64,000 nucleotides of DNA from Utricularia gibba (taxonomy: Eukaryota > Streptophyta > Magnoliopsida > Lamiales > Lentibulariaceae). The position numbers and the translations under genes were made by a program. The stretch's first letter is position 1. Every line of letters starts with the position of its first letter. The stretch lies in assembly GCA_002189035.1 (NCBI GenBank), contig CM007992.1:1178001-1242000 (forward strand), in the 5' to 3' direction. Below are positions 17,406 through 50,905 of the stretch, in pieces. Below the pieces are notes generated by a model. It ran no database searches. It worked only from the letters and a program-made list of their open reading frames with translations, and had not been told where the DNA came from.

Positions 17406-20400
17406 CTACTCCCCCCATGCAGTGGCCTTCGTGTTGGGAACGTGGAACATGAAGTTGGCCACCCTTTCCCTGTCTCTTTCCTTCTGCTTCGGGAGATCGA
17501 TGAGTTGGAGTCCCAACCTCCCCATCTCCTGAACCTCCTGCGGCGACAGGATCTTGATGCACCACACGCTGTTCACGAATTCCCTGTCCAGAGAACAAAT
17601 GTAGAGCTGAGAATCATGCAGTGTGTGGCTGTTGCTTTTGTGTGTGTATCTGGAGTTGAACTTACTGGTAGGGGTCGTCGCCGAGGAGAAGAAGATCGTT
17701 CTCTCGGTCGACGAATACAAGCTGCCAGCCTGATCTTAAGGGGTCCTCCAGTTGCTGTTCCAGTCCAAACATGCGGCCAACTTCTCTGCGCAGCTCCTGG
17801 TAGCTGCTCAATTTGCTTATGTCGACTGATCTTCCAGGGGACCCTGATTTGTATACCTTGACAAAGTTTCTGTTCGAAGGACTAACAGCGTTGTTGCGGT
17901 TGTCTGAGCAGAACAGAAAACCTGAAGAATCATCAATGCAACTACTGGCAATGGGGTTTAGATTTCGGGAGGAACAATCAGCGGCAGCAGCAACACCGGG
18001 GCTGCTGCTGCTCATGTAGCTGCTGCAAGTGCCGAACCCTTTGTCACTACTCACAAGGGGCAAAGAGTCGATATTCACTCCGAACAGAAAGTGATTCTGG
18101 GGATCATTACCTCCTCCGTCGGCTAAACAATGATCCCACCAACCGGAGGGAAAGGAGGCAAACAAACAGAATTCTGATCAATGTGTTGCTGTTGTTGTAC
18201 TGAAAGAAGAGGATCCACCGCAATGCGCTTGTTTGGCCTGCAACTGTAAGATGCAAAGCTTTTTGATGCAGCATCATTATACACTCCTAATACACTCTCC
18301 AGAGGAGAAACAGAGTCCACCATCCCAGCTTTTGCATGTGAAATTGACTGCTGAATTGCCTCAAACTCTGCCTGGTAGCCTGAATCCGGAGCAGCAGCCT
18401 CAACTGGCTGCACTATTTTGTGACAAGTATCTGTAAAACGTTGAACAGCAGGAGGTTGCTGATGGTACACCTGACGAAGTTGCATTGGCGTGTTGGTGAA
18501 TGGCAACGACCTCTGGTGTATGGCTTGCTGCGGGAACACATCAGCAGGTGCATGATGAGACTGAACACCTGAAAGGCTCTGCAGAAAGTGATCAGAAATC
18601 TGTGGCTCAATGAAATCTGTGGCCTGGCCATTTGGAGCTTGGGATAGCTGCAGTTGCATGAGGGATGGAAGCATCTGTTTCGATGGGTCTACAACCCTGG
18701 CCTCCTGAACAGCAGCAGCAGATGCCATAGTTTGAAACATGTCACTTTGGAACCCAAGATCTGATGCACTGACCCGTGGATGCACCCACGGGTTTAATCC
18801 CATTCCCATTTCCATTCCTTGGTACATAGCATCTTCCCAGAGCCAGACTGGGGAAGAAGTTAATCCCATATCGTCCATCTTCATTCCTGAATGCAACATT
18901 TAGGTCTATGAATCATTAACTTGCAAAGATGTGTGTTTGTTTTGTGACCAGGAAAAAGGAAAAGATCGGTTCTTCATACCACCCGATGAAGAGAAGCGCC
19001 TGAATCTCAATGGAAATGATGAAGGATACATAGGAAAAGTGTTCAAAGCCTCAATCTCCCAAAGGGACACTCTTGGTTGCTTCTCCCCTGCTGCAGACTC
19101 ATCCCAGCCTACCTGCAACCAACACTCAAATTCAACTTAAAACATGAAGCATTTTCATGCTTCCAGAAGATAGAAACTTGTGGTCACCTTAACTGACCGC
19201 CAGTGTGAATTTGGCCACTTCACGGCATCCAAGTCACTTATAGCAGTAACAGTGCCCATATAACTGGCCAAAGAAAAAAGAAGAAAATAGAGAGAATGAC
19301 ATTGGCAAGGAAAGGAATAATCAGGATGCAAGTTCCAATCATACCGGCGAACACTAGATTCATCTGTTTCAAACAGCATTCGAAAGCGCATGCCAACAGA
19401 TATTCTAGTGTGATGCACTGCTTTTAGATACTTGGTGAGAGGTATCACAAACTCAGAAGGGCTAGCCCTGAAATAAGCAAACTTCATGTTAGTGTGTTTA
19501 GTGGGCATGGACTCATGCCACAAGTCCAGGAAATTGATACCTTGGATTGTAAAATACTGTGAAACGGGTGTTGGTTGCAGCTGCATGGGCAGCAGCAGCA
19601 AGGAGGCCTAGATGCATGCTATCACTGGATAAAACTGAAGAGGGCATTATGGTTTGTGGCCGGTTGGCACGACGAATGCCAATAAACAATTGGTTTTTCT
19701 CATTCCTGGGAAGCAATAAGTAAAACATTTCTCAGTAAACAGGGAGCCGCAAGTTACTACTACATGTCTCCAGAAGCTCACCATATGAAAATAACTGAAT
19801 CACCAGCAACAAGTTTTTTTGCAGTCACAAAAACACTCCAACCAGTTGTAAGTAGATGCCTCTTTGGCTGACCTGGTAAATTATCAGGAAACTCAGATGT
19901 CGAAGTCAGTATTTGTGTTGTTTCAAATGGATTACTTACCCCGGAAAATATGCTTGAATTTCCAGACGTTTTCATGCAGATCTCTAGCAACCAGCTCTTG
20001 AGTTGGAGGCTGCTGACTGAAGTCCTGCAAAAGAGATTTCAGTTTCAGCCAACAAGTATCAATCTAAACAAACAAAAAGTGGGAAACCAGCATGCTTAAA
20101 AATTGTTTTACCAAAGGGGGAAACACTTTCTCTGCAGCACGACGAGGAACTGAAAATCCTCCATGAGTACTGGTGTCACTTGCTGTCAATATCTTGCAGA
20201 AGTAATTTGTTGGCTGCTTGCTTCCGAAGCCTAAGTCTGCTGCAAGAAAGGAGATCCTGTTTTGTTCTTCCTGAACAAGGACATGAATAACGAACTGAAT
20301 CATCCAGCCGACAGACAGCATAATTAAAATGTCTAATGAGCAGAAATGCCTTACTGTGCTCAATGGTTGCAAAGTCATTTGTGCATAAACTTCATCTGTC

Positions 20401-21057
20401 TCAGGGTCAGCCTATTCAAGCAAAAATATGAGCAAACAACGGTGTAAATGCTTCAATAGACAGGGCCAGATGACTTACATGCATCACCACATTGTGAAGC
20501 TGGCAAATAAGTTGAGGTGGTAAGCTCGGGTAATTTGGAATCTGAGCATCAACTTCCCGCTTTGTGGAAATTGAAACCTGCATATCATACAAAAAACATC
20601 AAAGAGAAGGAAGCAGGCATTCATCAACATGTTGTTGGTTTGTTGGGATGGATAGAATACCTGTTCGCTGTGACCCTGAGGAAAATAAACCACATGACTG
20701 CCAATGGAAGGCAGGTAAACCAGAGGACCAGCACAGGCATGCCATAGCTCAGAGTTCAAGCAGCTTTTAACTCCTCCTAATCAAAAGCCAGCCAAAATAT
20801 CATCAATTCCAAAAGCCAACAAAGAATGTTGTTGAGATTAGAGAAGTTTGATCTTATCACCATGACTATCATACATTACATATAAGGAAGAGAGTTATGA
20901 AGTAAAAGGATAAGGAAAATGAAAGGGTTTTGCAGAATGGGAACCAAAACCTGAGAAAAAAGCAAATTTCATGCTTGCAAGAAGGAAAAAAAAGTGGGAT
21001 TTGAGGAAGCAGGAAAGATTCACCTTCAGGAGAGTAGTCATCTGCTGATTCTTTCAT
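17406..21057 (-). CDS. ARF6: Auxin response factor, ARF6/ARF8 clade, with an apparent frame break
   Basis: Transcription factor that binds auxin response elements and activates auxin genes. Exons on the minus strand: 21057-21024, 20776-20661, 20577-20479, 20411-20355, 20270-20112, 20024-19940, 19872-19782, 19705-19541, 19467-19345, 19263-19188, 19112-18980, 18886-17666 and 17583-17406; about 845 aa in total. The B3 DNA-binding domain lies about residues 120-220 ([36 protein letters not shown]), the ARF domain follows ([19 protein letters not shown]), then a Gln-rich activating middle region and a C-terminal PB1 domain ([33 protein letters not shown]). The middle region is short compared with what I recall of Arabidopsis ARF6. 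[20 protein letters not shown] and [13 protein letters not shown] favour ARF6 over ARF8. The long exon 12 changes frame between 18165 and 18100: the upstream frame stops at 18123. One base appears to be missing. Without correction the protein would lose PB1. Confidence 0.88.
17717..17737 (-). promoter_or_regulatory. miR167 target site in the ARF6-like mRNA
   Basis: The plus strand here reads ACAAGCTGCCAGCCTGATCT plus one T. Recalled mature miR167 differs from it at positions 1, 2, 14 and 21 only, so the minus-strand mRNA is complementary. It encodes RSGWQLV in the PB1 domain, the known position of the miR167 site in ARF6 and ARF8. Central pairing (positions 9-12) is intact, so slicing is expected. 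Confidence 0.88.
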
Positions 21058-28855: not shown

Positions 28856-28894
28856 GGAGGGAAGGTTGGGAACTGAATTTTGTATCAAGTGGTG

Positions 28895-30809
28895 ATGGGG
28901 ATAGTCAATGAGATGAGTGGAGGGGACCAGCCCTCGGAGCTCACTCGCAGAAGAGGATGTGCGTGCACAAAAGATGATTTTCTGCCTGAGGAATCATTTA
29001 AGAGCTGGGGAAACTACTTGACTGCGTTGGGGCAGACACCGGCTCGAATGGTAAATCGAGCGTTCACTCGTTCAAGTCTGGAGGAAGAGATCGAGGTGAA
29101 GATGCGGAGCCAACACCAGATGAAGAAAACACTCACTTGGTGGGACTTGATCTGGTTTGGTATGGGGGCTGTCATCGGTGCAGGAATATTCGTCCTCACT
29201 GGCCAGGAGGCACACGATAATGCCGGCCCTGCGGTCGTTCTTTCTTATGTTGTATCCGGGCTTTCTGCATTGCTTTCCGTCTTCTGCTACACTGAATTCG
29301 CCATTGAGATTCCAGTTGCGGGTAAGCAGGGGCAACCCTCGTGGTAGGAAGAGATGGTCATTTCTACTGCCGAGAGTAGTTTCATTTAATCTTGTCACTC
29401 ATTTTTCAGGAGGCTCGTTTGCATACCTGCGTGTGGAGCTTGGGGATTTTGTGGCCTTCATTGCTGCTGGAAACATTATTCTTGAATATGTGGTGAGTGG
29501 AGCAGCCGTTGCACGCTCATGGACATCCTACTTTGCCACACTCTGCAACCACAAGCCTAATGATTTCCGTATTCTAGTACATGATCTACCTGATGGCTAC
29601 AACGAGCTTGATCCTATCGCCGTTGGCATCATTATATTTGTCTGCATCGTTGCTGTAATGAGCACGAAGGGCTCCTCACGCCTCAACTACATTGCCTCAA
29701 TTGTCCATGTGGTCGTGATTGCCTTCATCATCATAGCTGGCTTCATCAAGGCAGATGTCAAGAATTTTACACCTTTTGCTCCATTTGGTGCAAGGGGTGT
29801 CTTCAGAGCCTCTGCAGTTCTCTTTTTTGCATACGTGGGTTTTGATGCTGTCGCAACCATGGCCGAGGAGACTAAGAATCCTGGAAAGGACATCCCTATT
29901 GGTCTGGTTGGATCCATGGTGATCACCACTACCATATACTGTTTGCTAGCAATTGTTCTATCTCTGATGCAGCCATACCAGAAAATAGATACGGATGCCC
30001 CTTTTTCAAGAGCATTTGAGATGGCTGGTCTGAGTTGGGCTCAGTGCATTGTTGCTGCTGGCGCACTGAAAGGCATGACTTCTGTGTTGCTGGTAAACTC
30101 TGTTGGTCAGGCACGATACCTCACCCACATTGCTCGAACTCACATGATGCCACCATGGTTTGCCAATGTTGATCCAAACACTGGAACTCCCATCAATGCA
30201 ACCATTTGCATGCTTGCCGCCTCTGCAGTCATTGCCTTCTTCTCAGAACTGGATATTCTTGCCAATCTACTTTCAATAGCAACACTATTCATCTTCATGC
30301 TCGTCGCACTGGCCCTCATCGTCCGCAGATATTATGCCACGGGAGAGACATCACCACAGCAGAGAAACAAACTTATCCTCTTCATTGTCTTAATACTGGT
30401 GTCCTCCATCATCACAAGTGCTTACTGGGGAATCAGTGAAACTGGTTGGATCCTGTACTGCGTGACGGTTCCCATTTGGCTCCTTTCTACTGGTGCACTC
30501 TGGTTTTTTCTCCCTCAAGCCCGTAAACCAAAGGTCTGGGGTGCTCCTTTGGTACCTTGGATTCCTTCAGCATCCATTGCCATCAACATCTTCTTGCTAG
30601 GATCCATAGACAGACAGTCATTCATCAGGTTTGGGATCTGGACGTTCATCCTCCTCGTCTACTATGTCTTCTTTGGACTCCATGCATCCTATGACACCGC
30701 CATATCTTATGAAGCTAAGGCATTGGAGGCCAAAGCATATGGCAAGGCTGAGGAAGGTAGTCATCCTCCTCCACCCAGCTCTGGTTCTGGGTCCGGGTTG
30801 ATGGTTTAG
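28895..30809 (+). CDS. Cationic amino acid transporter (CAT family, APC superfamily)
   Basis: Imports lysine, arginine and related amino acids, probably with protons, across the plasma membrane or an endomembrane. Two exons, 28895-29321 and 29410-30809, joined at phase 1 (PVAG|GSFAYLRVELGD) and giving 608 aa, the normal CAT length. The N-terminus is soluble and charged (residues 1-75). The APC core begins TWWDLIWFGMGAVIGAGIFV, and about 14 membrane segments follow. The AEETKNPGKDIPIGLVGS loop and the C-terminal CAT block (GAPLVPWIPSASIAINIFL) are intact. The tail is Pro/Ser/Gly-rich. Resemblance is to the CAT1/CAT5/CAT8 group; the paralogue is not resolved. The start ATG is preceded in frame by non-ATG codons only. 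It lies tail-to-tail with the next gene, 207 bases between stops. Confidence 0.93.
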
Positions 30810-47900: not shown

Positions 47901-48451
47901 GTGGCAATTCCTGCTCCTTGAAATCACCAAGAGTCAACTTTTGTGTTGATGTTGTTGACCCGGTAAAAGGGTGGGGCATCTGGGTTGGAGGGAATGTGTT
48001 CTCTTCGCCATCGTGGTTCAGGGCAGCTGTGCCTCCATTGATTGATTGCTCCCACCGGCCCCCGTTTCCTTTTCTTCCGTTCCTCTTTCTGTTCCCACCG
48101 TCAATTGGCCGATTCCTCAGTCTCCATCACTGGTTTTCTTTAATTTTCTCCTGTAGTTCCTTTGTGTTCTTCTCCCTCTTCTCGGTTTCCGTTTCCCAAC
48201 GTGCGGAGCTCTCCAGCCGCTTTTCCTAGTTCTGTTTGGTGCCTGCCTGCTGCGATTACTTTCTCCCCATGGGGTTCCACCACCTTTTTCATAACCCAAG
48301 ATTTTCCAGCTAATAGATACTTTATCAAACGTTCTGGGCTGCTCTAAAGGTGCTTTCTGGTTACCCTCACTGAAGTAGGGAGTACCAAGTTTTGGGAAGG
48401 TGATTGTCTAGATCCTGGTGGCTTTTCAGGGGTTAATGAGATTTGGTTGTC
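44936..48451. other. Spacer between the UGNT1-like and SD2-5-like genes
   Basis: About 3.5 kb. 45060-45550 and 47050-47620 are AT-rich without frames. 45550-47050 has more balanced composition but is broken by stops in every frame; no retroelement motif could be confirmed. From 47800 GC rises, and 47950-48451 probably is the promoter and leader of the receptor kinase, with several short non-homologous frames. Confidence 0.45.
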
Positions 48452-50905
48452 ATGGAACGAATTTGGTTTTTTCTCTGCATTCCGATTCTGCGGTTGCTTC
48501 TGCTGTGTTTAATAGAGTTGGAACCATGCTCTGGTAGTATTCAGAATTACGGGAGATTGAAGCCGGGATTCAAGGCATCTGAGATGCTGTATATAGACAA
48601 AGGAGGGATCTTTCTGTTATCAAACAGCTCTGCTTTTGGGTTTGGCTTTACACCTACTCCCGAGGATGTTACCCAGTTTCTATTGAGTGTGATTCATCAG
48701 AGTACCTCAACAGTGGTTTGGACTGCAAATAGAGGCTCTCCAGTTCTAAATTCAGATTTCCTTGTTTTTGATACCACTGGAAATGTCTACCTGCAGCAGT
48801 CTCTGTCTCCTACATGGACAACAAACACATCCAACATGGGAGTTTCATCCATGGAATTGCTAGATTCTGGAAACTTGGTCCTGGTTGGGAGTGATGGCAG
48901 AGTAATTTGGCAAAGTTTTGCCCATCCCACTGATACCCTTTTGTCGGAACAATCATTCTCAGAGGGAATGAGACTTGTTAGTGACGTTGGATCCAATAAC
49001 CTGAGCTATTCCCTTGAGATCAGATCAGGGAATATGATTCTATCCGCTGGTTTCCAGCCACCGCAGGCGTATTGGTCTATGGCAAGTGATCCCAGAATTG
49101 TCATCAATAAACAAGGCGGTTCAGTGATGTCTGCAAAGATTATTGCTAATTCCTGGAAATTCTTCGATTCCACCAACAGCTTGCTCTTCCAGTTTGTCTT
49201 TTCACCAGATACTAACACAACAGCTACATGGATTGCTGCTTTAAATGAGGATGGTTCGATTAGTTTCAATATGCTTGGAGGAAGTTCCCCCGGTCCTTCC
49301 ACCACAACTATACCTCAAAATGCATGTAGTAGGGTGGCTGCTTGCGATCCTGCCTCCCTTTGCAGCTCTCAATCCCAATGTCAATGTCCAGCAGCTCTCC
49401 CCTCATGCACCCATATGAGATTCCCTTCATGTCATGATCCGGCTGTCCAATTCAAGCTTGTAACTGCTGCTGATGGTGTTAGTTATTCACCCCTGGGATT
49501 CTCCGATCCAGTCAGCCATACTACTTTGGAGGCTTGCAAAACCTCTTGCTTGAATAACTGTTCTTGTGGTGCTATGTTCTTTCAAAATAGTTCAGGAAGT
49601 TGCTATCATTTCAATGAAATTGGAAGCATTGAGCAATCCAATGGCAGTGATTCCTATGCCTCCTTCATCAAGATACCTGATAATGGAAGAACTGGAGGCG
49701 GGCCCAAAGCTGCTAAAGGTTCCTTGGTTGTAATCATCATCATTGTCATCGTGACGATACTATTTGTGACTGCACTGCTTTTAGTGGGAATCCGTTTATA
49801 CAGGAATAGCAGCAGCACTAAAGAGCCTGATACAGCAAAGGAGAGCTCAGACGAGGATAGTTTCTTGGAAGGCATATCAGGGATGCCAATCCGCTTTACC
49901 TACAAAGACCTCGAGACTGCAACCAATAATTTTAACAAAAAACTGGGACAAGGAGGATTTGGCTCTGTTTATCACGGCACCCTCCCTGATGGAACACCTG
50001 TGGCTGTGAAGAAACTCGAAGGAATCGGTCAGGGGAAGAAAGAATTCAGAGCCGAGGTTGCCATAATCGGTAGCGTTCATCATTTTCATCTGGTGAGGCT
50101 CAGAGGCTTCTGTGCTGAGGGCAGTCATCGCCTCCTTGCCTATGAATACATGGCCAACGGTTCATTAGACAAATGGCTTTTCAAAAAGGGTGCCGGAGAC
50201 TTCATGCTTGACTGGGAGACAAGATACAATATTGCCCTTGGTACAGCAAAAGGGTTAGCATATCTCCATGAAGACTGTGAAGCAAAGATTGTTCACTGTG
50301 ATATAAAACCAGAAAATGTTCTTCTTGATGATAAATTCATGGCAAAAGTTTCAGATTTTGGACTTGCCAAGCTTATGACGAGGGAGCAGAGCCATGTTTT
50401 TACTACATTGAGAGGGACACGAGGGTACCTTGCACCTGAGTGGATCACAAACTACGCCATCTCAGAGAAGAGTGATGTCTACAGCTATGGGATGGTCCTG
50501 CTTGAGCTAATCGGCGGTAGAAAAAACTACGACCCTTCGGAGATTTCAGAAAGATCTCATTTTCCCTCATATGCATTCAAGATGATGGAAGAAGGGAAGA
50601 TGATGGAGATTCTTGACTGCAAACTGAAGGTAAATGAAGAAGATGAAAGGGTAGGCATAGCTATCAAAGTCGCTTTGTGGTGTATACAAGATGATATGTA
50701 CCTCCGGCCACCAATGACAAAAGTAGTGCAAATGCTAGAACGGCTGTGCCCCGTCCCTCCGCCGCCAGTCACCTCTCATCTGGCATCCCGCTTGTACTCC
50801 AGTTTTTTCAAGCTAAGCAGTGATGGGGGAACTTCTTCAGGTGGCCCATCAGATTGTAACAGTGATACATATGTTTCGGCAACACGACTTTCAGGTCCAA
50901 GATAA
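48452..50905 (+). CDS. SD2-5: G-type lectin S-domain receptor-like kinase, SD2-5-like
   Basis: Plasma-membrane receptor kinase of 817 aa in one exon, the usual structure for the SD2 group. Signal peptide at residues 1-28 (FFLCIPILRLLLLCLIELEP). The B-type lectin domain follows, about 50-160 (VVWTANRGSPVLNS, ELLDSGNLVLVG, IWQSFAHPTDTLL). A cysteine-rich region at about 290-395 includes a PAN-like segment (ACKTSCLNNCSCGAMFF). The membrane helix is at about 422-447 (LVVIIIIVIVTILFVTALLL). The kinase domain runs about 495-765: LGQGGFGSVYHG, VAVKKLEG lysine, HCDIKPENVLLD, DFGLAKL, and GTRGYLAPEWITN. All catalytic residues are present; HCD replaces HRD, normal for this group, making it a non-RD kinase. 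The ATG at 48452 is used because the frame upstream has no other ATG. Ligand unknown. Confidence 0.93.
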   Translation: MERIWFFLCIPILRLLLLCLIELEPCSGSIQNYGRLKPGFKASEMLYIDKGGIFLLSNSSAFGFGFTPTPEDVTQFLLSVIHQSTSTVVWTANRGSPVLNSDFLVFDTTGNVYLQQSLSPTWTTNTSNMGVSSMELLDSGNLVLVGSDGRVIWQSFAHPTDTLLSEQSFSEGMRLVSDVGSNNLSYSLEIRSGNMILSAGFQPPQAYWSMASDPRIVINKQGGSVMSAKIIANSWKFFDSTNSLLFQFVFSPDTNTTATWIAALNEDGSISFNMLGGSSPGPSTTTIPQNACSRVAACDPASLCSSQSQCQCPAALPSCTHMRFPSCHDPAVQFKLVTAADGVSYSPLGFSDPVSHTTLEACKTSCLNNCSCGAMFFQNSSGSCYHFNEIGSIEQSNGSDSYASFIKIPDNGRTGGGPKAAKGSLVVIIIIVIVTILFVTALLLVGIRLYRNSSSTKEPDTAKESSDEDSFLEGISGMPIRFTYKDLETATNNFNKKLGQGGFGSVYHGTLPDGTPVAVKKLEGIGQGKKEFRAEVAIIGSVHHFHLVRLRGFCAEGSHRLLAYEYMANGSLDKWLFKKGAGDFMLDWETRYNIALGTAKGLAYLHEDCEAKIVHCDIKPENVLLDDKFMAKVSDFGLAKLMTREQSHVFTTLRGTRGYLAPEWITNYAISEKSDVYSYGMVLLELIGGRKNYDPSEISERSHFPSYAFKMMEEGKMMEILDCKLKVNEEDERVGIAIKVALWCIQDDMYLRPPMTKVVQMLERLCPVPPPPVTSHLASRLYSSFFKLSSDGGTSSGGPSDCNSDTYVSATRLSGPR

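Follow-up and report, generated by a model that had tools for sequence, protein, structure and literature searches.

The window analysed here, a stretch of 64,000 nucleotides from Utricularia gibba, carries on its reverse strand an ARF6-like gene whose coding part we rebuilt as 13 exons, from a start ATG at 21057 to a terminal stop TAG at 17408-17406, with introns of 67–247 nt (Table 1). Pfam matches placed a B3 domain (PF02362, 5.2e-24) and an ARF ancillary domain (PF06507, 3.7e-32) in the protein before a break of the reading frame that falls in exon 12. In the frame after the break the AUX_IAA model of Pfam matched above its cut-off and the PB1 model only below its own. The closest solved PB1 domains were those of ARF5 (4chk, E=2e-30) and ARF7 (4nj6, E=7e-28). 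The C-terminal residues agree with those of ARF6, and from these features and a miR167-like site at 17737-17717, with 1 mismatch to the miR167 target sequence, we take the gene to be ARF6-like.

By its sequence features, the window gene is an ordinary ARF6-like activator ARF, with predicted B3, middle region and PB1 and a miR167-like site. It has in common with the activator ARFs of the ARF6/ARF8 clade, which are targeted by miR167, the B3 and ancillary domains, the middle region, the PB1 domain and the miR167-like site, here located in the PB1-coding part, but differs from them by an apparent deficit of one base in exon 12. As assembled, the C-terminal PB1 is therefore not in the reading frame of the preceding domains but lies intact in the next one. 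This does not decide the membership of the real gene, because we judge the break to be an artefact (see below).

Table 1. Coordinates of the ARF6-like gene, its exons and the elements around the frame break, given as positions in the window.
Feature	Position	Strand	Basis or remark
ARF6-like gene, coding part, 13 exons	17406..21057	(-)	all borders GT-AG, phases consistent up to exon 12
Exons 1-6	21057-21024, 20776-20661, 20577-20479, 20411-20355, 20270-20112, 20024-19940	(-)	
Exons 7-11	19872-19782, 19705-19541, 19467-19345, 19263-19188, 19112-18980	(-)	
Exons 12, 13	18886-17666, 17583-17406	(-)	
Exon 12, middle region and most of PB1, 1221 nt	17666..18886	(-)	one base short for flanking phases
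Interval where one added base gives a single open frame, 57 positions; TTT, CCC and GGG runs inside	18123..18179	(-)	open frames
TAG stop met by the incoming frame	18123..18125	(-)	sequence reading
Open frame with conserved continuation and first part of PB1	17662..18177	(-)	reading frame and domain matches
PB1 domain (domains III/IV), spanning exons 12 and 13, limits approximate	17505..17889	(-)	structure-domain matches
miR167-like target site AAGATCAGGCTGGCAGCTTGT, kept	17717..17737	(-)	1 mismatch to miR167 target sequence

The frame break in exon 12

The incoming frame of exon 12 is open up to the TAG at 18125-18123, and the conserved continuation together with the PB1-coding remainder is open in the next frame (18177-17662). 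Summed over the 13 exons, the coding sequence comes to 2537 nt (2 mod 3), i.e. one base short, and the shortfall lies in exon 12. Both results bear out the sequence-only reading, which had described this stop and the displaced PB1 frame and had arrived at one missing base by phase bookkeeping over the same exons. Open frames alone place the missing base no finer than 18179-18123, and no run at the site is longer than 3 nt.

The assembly contains three further ARF6/8-type genes, one ARF6-like (on contig C328) and two ARF8-like (on C413 and at C4:223000-231000), and a miR167-like site is present in all four. Exon 12 is open in both ARF8-like genes. In the nearest ARF6-type paralogue, that of C328, exon 12 is itself broken by one missing base, at a site different from that of the window gene; the frame changes there near LLSSFSSEG (L043:1450-1550, C328 about 728950-729050). 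When the window gene was compared with this paralogue, the differences per codon position (1/2/3) were 0.17/0.12/0.53 in the DNA-binding part and 0.17/0.14/0.49 in the PB1 part. No relaxed constraint was seen after the stop in this comparison, the codon-position pattern being the same on both sides, although a very recent change would not show. PB1 past the break thus appears to have been constrained at the protein level about as strongly as the sequence that precedes it, and this shared pattern argues against an old truncation, but not against a very recent one.

Frame breaks in other conserved genes of the assembly

The search of the assembly covered 100 Mb in 516 contigs, and a break was recognized where two pieces of one profile touched or overlapped in the DNA in different frames, so that no intron could fit between them. 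Among the intron-poor GRAS genes, about 25 were open end to end, and among the loci examined in detail, which are a subset, at least eight others, which share 65–90% identity with an intact GRAS protein encoded in this genome, carried nine breaks without an intron (L071, L072, L073, L074, L076, L077, L078 and L081). All nine consist of a missing base, and several fall within G/C runs longer than those at the ARF6 site; three of the broken genes are of the DELLA type. Of seven HSP70 genes of the cytosolic type that have a single large exon, three are likewise broken by one missing base, and further frame breaks were found in 3-ketoacyl-CoA synthase (KCS) genes. The same class of break is thus frequent in unrelated conserved genes. 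As in ARF6, one base was missing in 19 of the 21 breaks scored, a sample in which one break was counted on two apparently redundant contigs and a few rest on short or weak matches. The breaks at the eight GRAS loci are probably consensus errors. Some of the breaks counted as controls may represent genuine pseudogenes, but the loss of so many DELLA-type and HSP70 genes by a living plant is not credible.

Differences between copies of one locus provide a second and independent test, with a result that agrees. The GRAS gene found on both C414 and C422 (L079/L066) shows 0 mismatches and 8 gap bases in 1079 nt, and over 4128 nt C316 and C412 (L057/L058) differ by 1 mismatch and 10 gaps, all of the latter on the small contig. 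These near-identical stretches probably represent redundant contigs. The copies differ by indels and hardly by substitutions, a pattern of consensus indel errors, since alleles or young duplicates would show substitutions. For the ARF6 exon itself, a search of the assembly for a second copy carrying the missing base matched only the window. Judged from their HSP70 hits, C241 and C304 look like another redundant pair, and the break common to both may be one event.

When only the safer breaks (9 GRAS, 3 HSP70 and 2 KCS) were counted and set against some 65 kb of exons of this kind, the rate came to roughly 0.2 per kb, about one break per 4–5 kb of the coding exons sampled, with an approximate denominator. 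At this rate, about 0.55 false breaks would be expected in the 2.54-kb ARF6 coding sequence, and the probability of at least one is about 0.4. Long exons elsewhere in the window are uninterrupted, namely those of a lectin-type receptor kinase (821 codons), an amino-acid permease and Trs120, so the local error rate may be lower and the accuracy is not uniformly poor. UDP-glycosyltransferases were dropped as a rate sample because their profile covers each gene only in part. Breaks suspected in the amino-acid permease gene (28877-30806) and in an LRR gene (about 60311-60230) of the window turned out to be ordinary GT-AG introns and were left uncounted. The receptor kinase gene (48440-50902, forward strand), which combines B_lectin and kinase domains, is intact in its single open frame.

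Origin of the break

We attribute the frame break of ARF6 to the loss of one base in the assembly consensus and regard the gene as otherwise an ordinary ARF6-like activator (probability about 0.9). We base this reading on the deficit of one base, on the PB1 frame that continues intact past it, and on the high frequency with which conserved genes throughout the assembly are broken by one missing base. With such breaks in excess across the assembly, an artefact is a priori far likelier than a real truncation, and from the sequence comparisons the ARF6 break most likely belongs to the same class. In the plant itself, exon 12 would then contain an additional base within 18179-18123, and the encoded protein would be full-length, PB1 included. 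In long-read assemblies the dominant error is known to consist of short homopolymer-associated indels, mostly deletions, which fragment genes (PMC12007338). In such cases (e.g. Kastor, PMC12007338), single-base deletions, often in G/C runs, split conserved genes into two open frames, and indels far exceed substitutions between copies; this assembly behaves likewise in both respects. It departs from that example in that the ARF6 site has only 3-nt runs.

A real and recent one-base deletion in the sequenced plant, either allelic or fixed, that cuts ARF6 after the middle region and removes PB1 appears improbable. The break is there in the sequence as a clean shift, each frame being uninterrupted as far as the break, many plants have annotated ARFs that lack domains III/IV (PMC4737911), and after a recent event PB1 would still appear intact; against this stand the surplus of one-base losses among conserved genes throughout the assembly and the unrelaxed constraint past the break. 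The annotated ARFs of this kind have a DNA-binding domain and a middle region but no PB1 (PMC4737911), as the window gene would if the break were real, whereas in the window PB1 is intact and comes immediately afterwards, in the next frame. In plants, nonsense-mediated decay (NMD) is triggered by a stop upstream of the last exon junction (the rule of 50–55 nt) and by a long 3' UTR (PMC5040709). The TAG at 18125-18123 sits 457 nt upstream of the last junction and would leave a long 3' UTR, so that NMD is predicted and little truncated protein is expected. With a real deletion, the transcript would probably be subject to NMD and the allele would act mostly as a loss of function. There is thus only a slight chance of a real ARF6 allele without PB1, which would be either silenced by NMD or released from Aux/IAA control, and a weak or null allele would be likelier than an abundant PB1-less activator. 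Were the truncation true, it would provide a natural PB1-less ARF6, useful to test auxin-independent ARF action, and it would belong to a type already known, since PB1-less ARFs exist (PMC4737911, PMC12671496).

Splicing within the exon could also yield a PB1-containing protein, by removal of a short intron (18163-18123 or another GT-AG pair) and with it part of the stretch around LPPFP. The sequence-only reading had taken 18163-18123 for the sole GT-AG pair able to repair the frame, which proved too narrow: we counted 25 pairs of at most 200 nt that would mechanically restore one open frame, e.g. 18200-18097 (104 nt) and 18244-18123 (122 nt). Every one of them has a weak donor (TTT/GTTTGC, TCA/GTACAA, ACA/GTTGCA and similar), no other intron of the gene is as short as the 41-nt candidate at 18163-18123, the ARF6/8-type paralogues show no apparent intron at this position, and a coding stretch regarded as conserved would be deleted, all of which makes such splicing very unlikely. 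We give still less credence to a regulated PB1-less isoform or a programmed frameshift with an effect comparable to that of MP11ir. In Arabidopsis, this functional isoform of ARF5/MONOPTEROS lacks PB1, as the window gene would if its break were real, and is produced by retention of intron 11 alongside the full-length form (PMC12671496). The break of the window gene lies instead inside an exon, the ARF8-like paralogues are without it and that of C328 is at another site.

The preferred reading thus remains a consensus deletion. The earlier suggestion that the protein, if the break were real, would be an ARF lacking PB1 was rightly put as a condition, but a truncated ARF6 as the actual consequence is disfavoured by the breaks of the same direction across the assembly, the differences between redundant contigs, which are almost only indels, and the constraint on PB1. 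For users of this assembly the warning is that a considerable fraction of its conserved genes is broken by the loss of a single base, and claims of gene loss or truncation drawn from it therefore need read support.

A further difference between the window gene and its paralogues lies between the middle region and PB1, at FVK/VYKSG (17870-17840). Here an intron is found in all three other ARF6/8-type genes (C328, C413 and C4:223-231 kb) and is absent from the window gene, from which it has apparently been lost precisely, as far as the sequence indicates.
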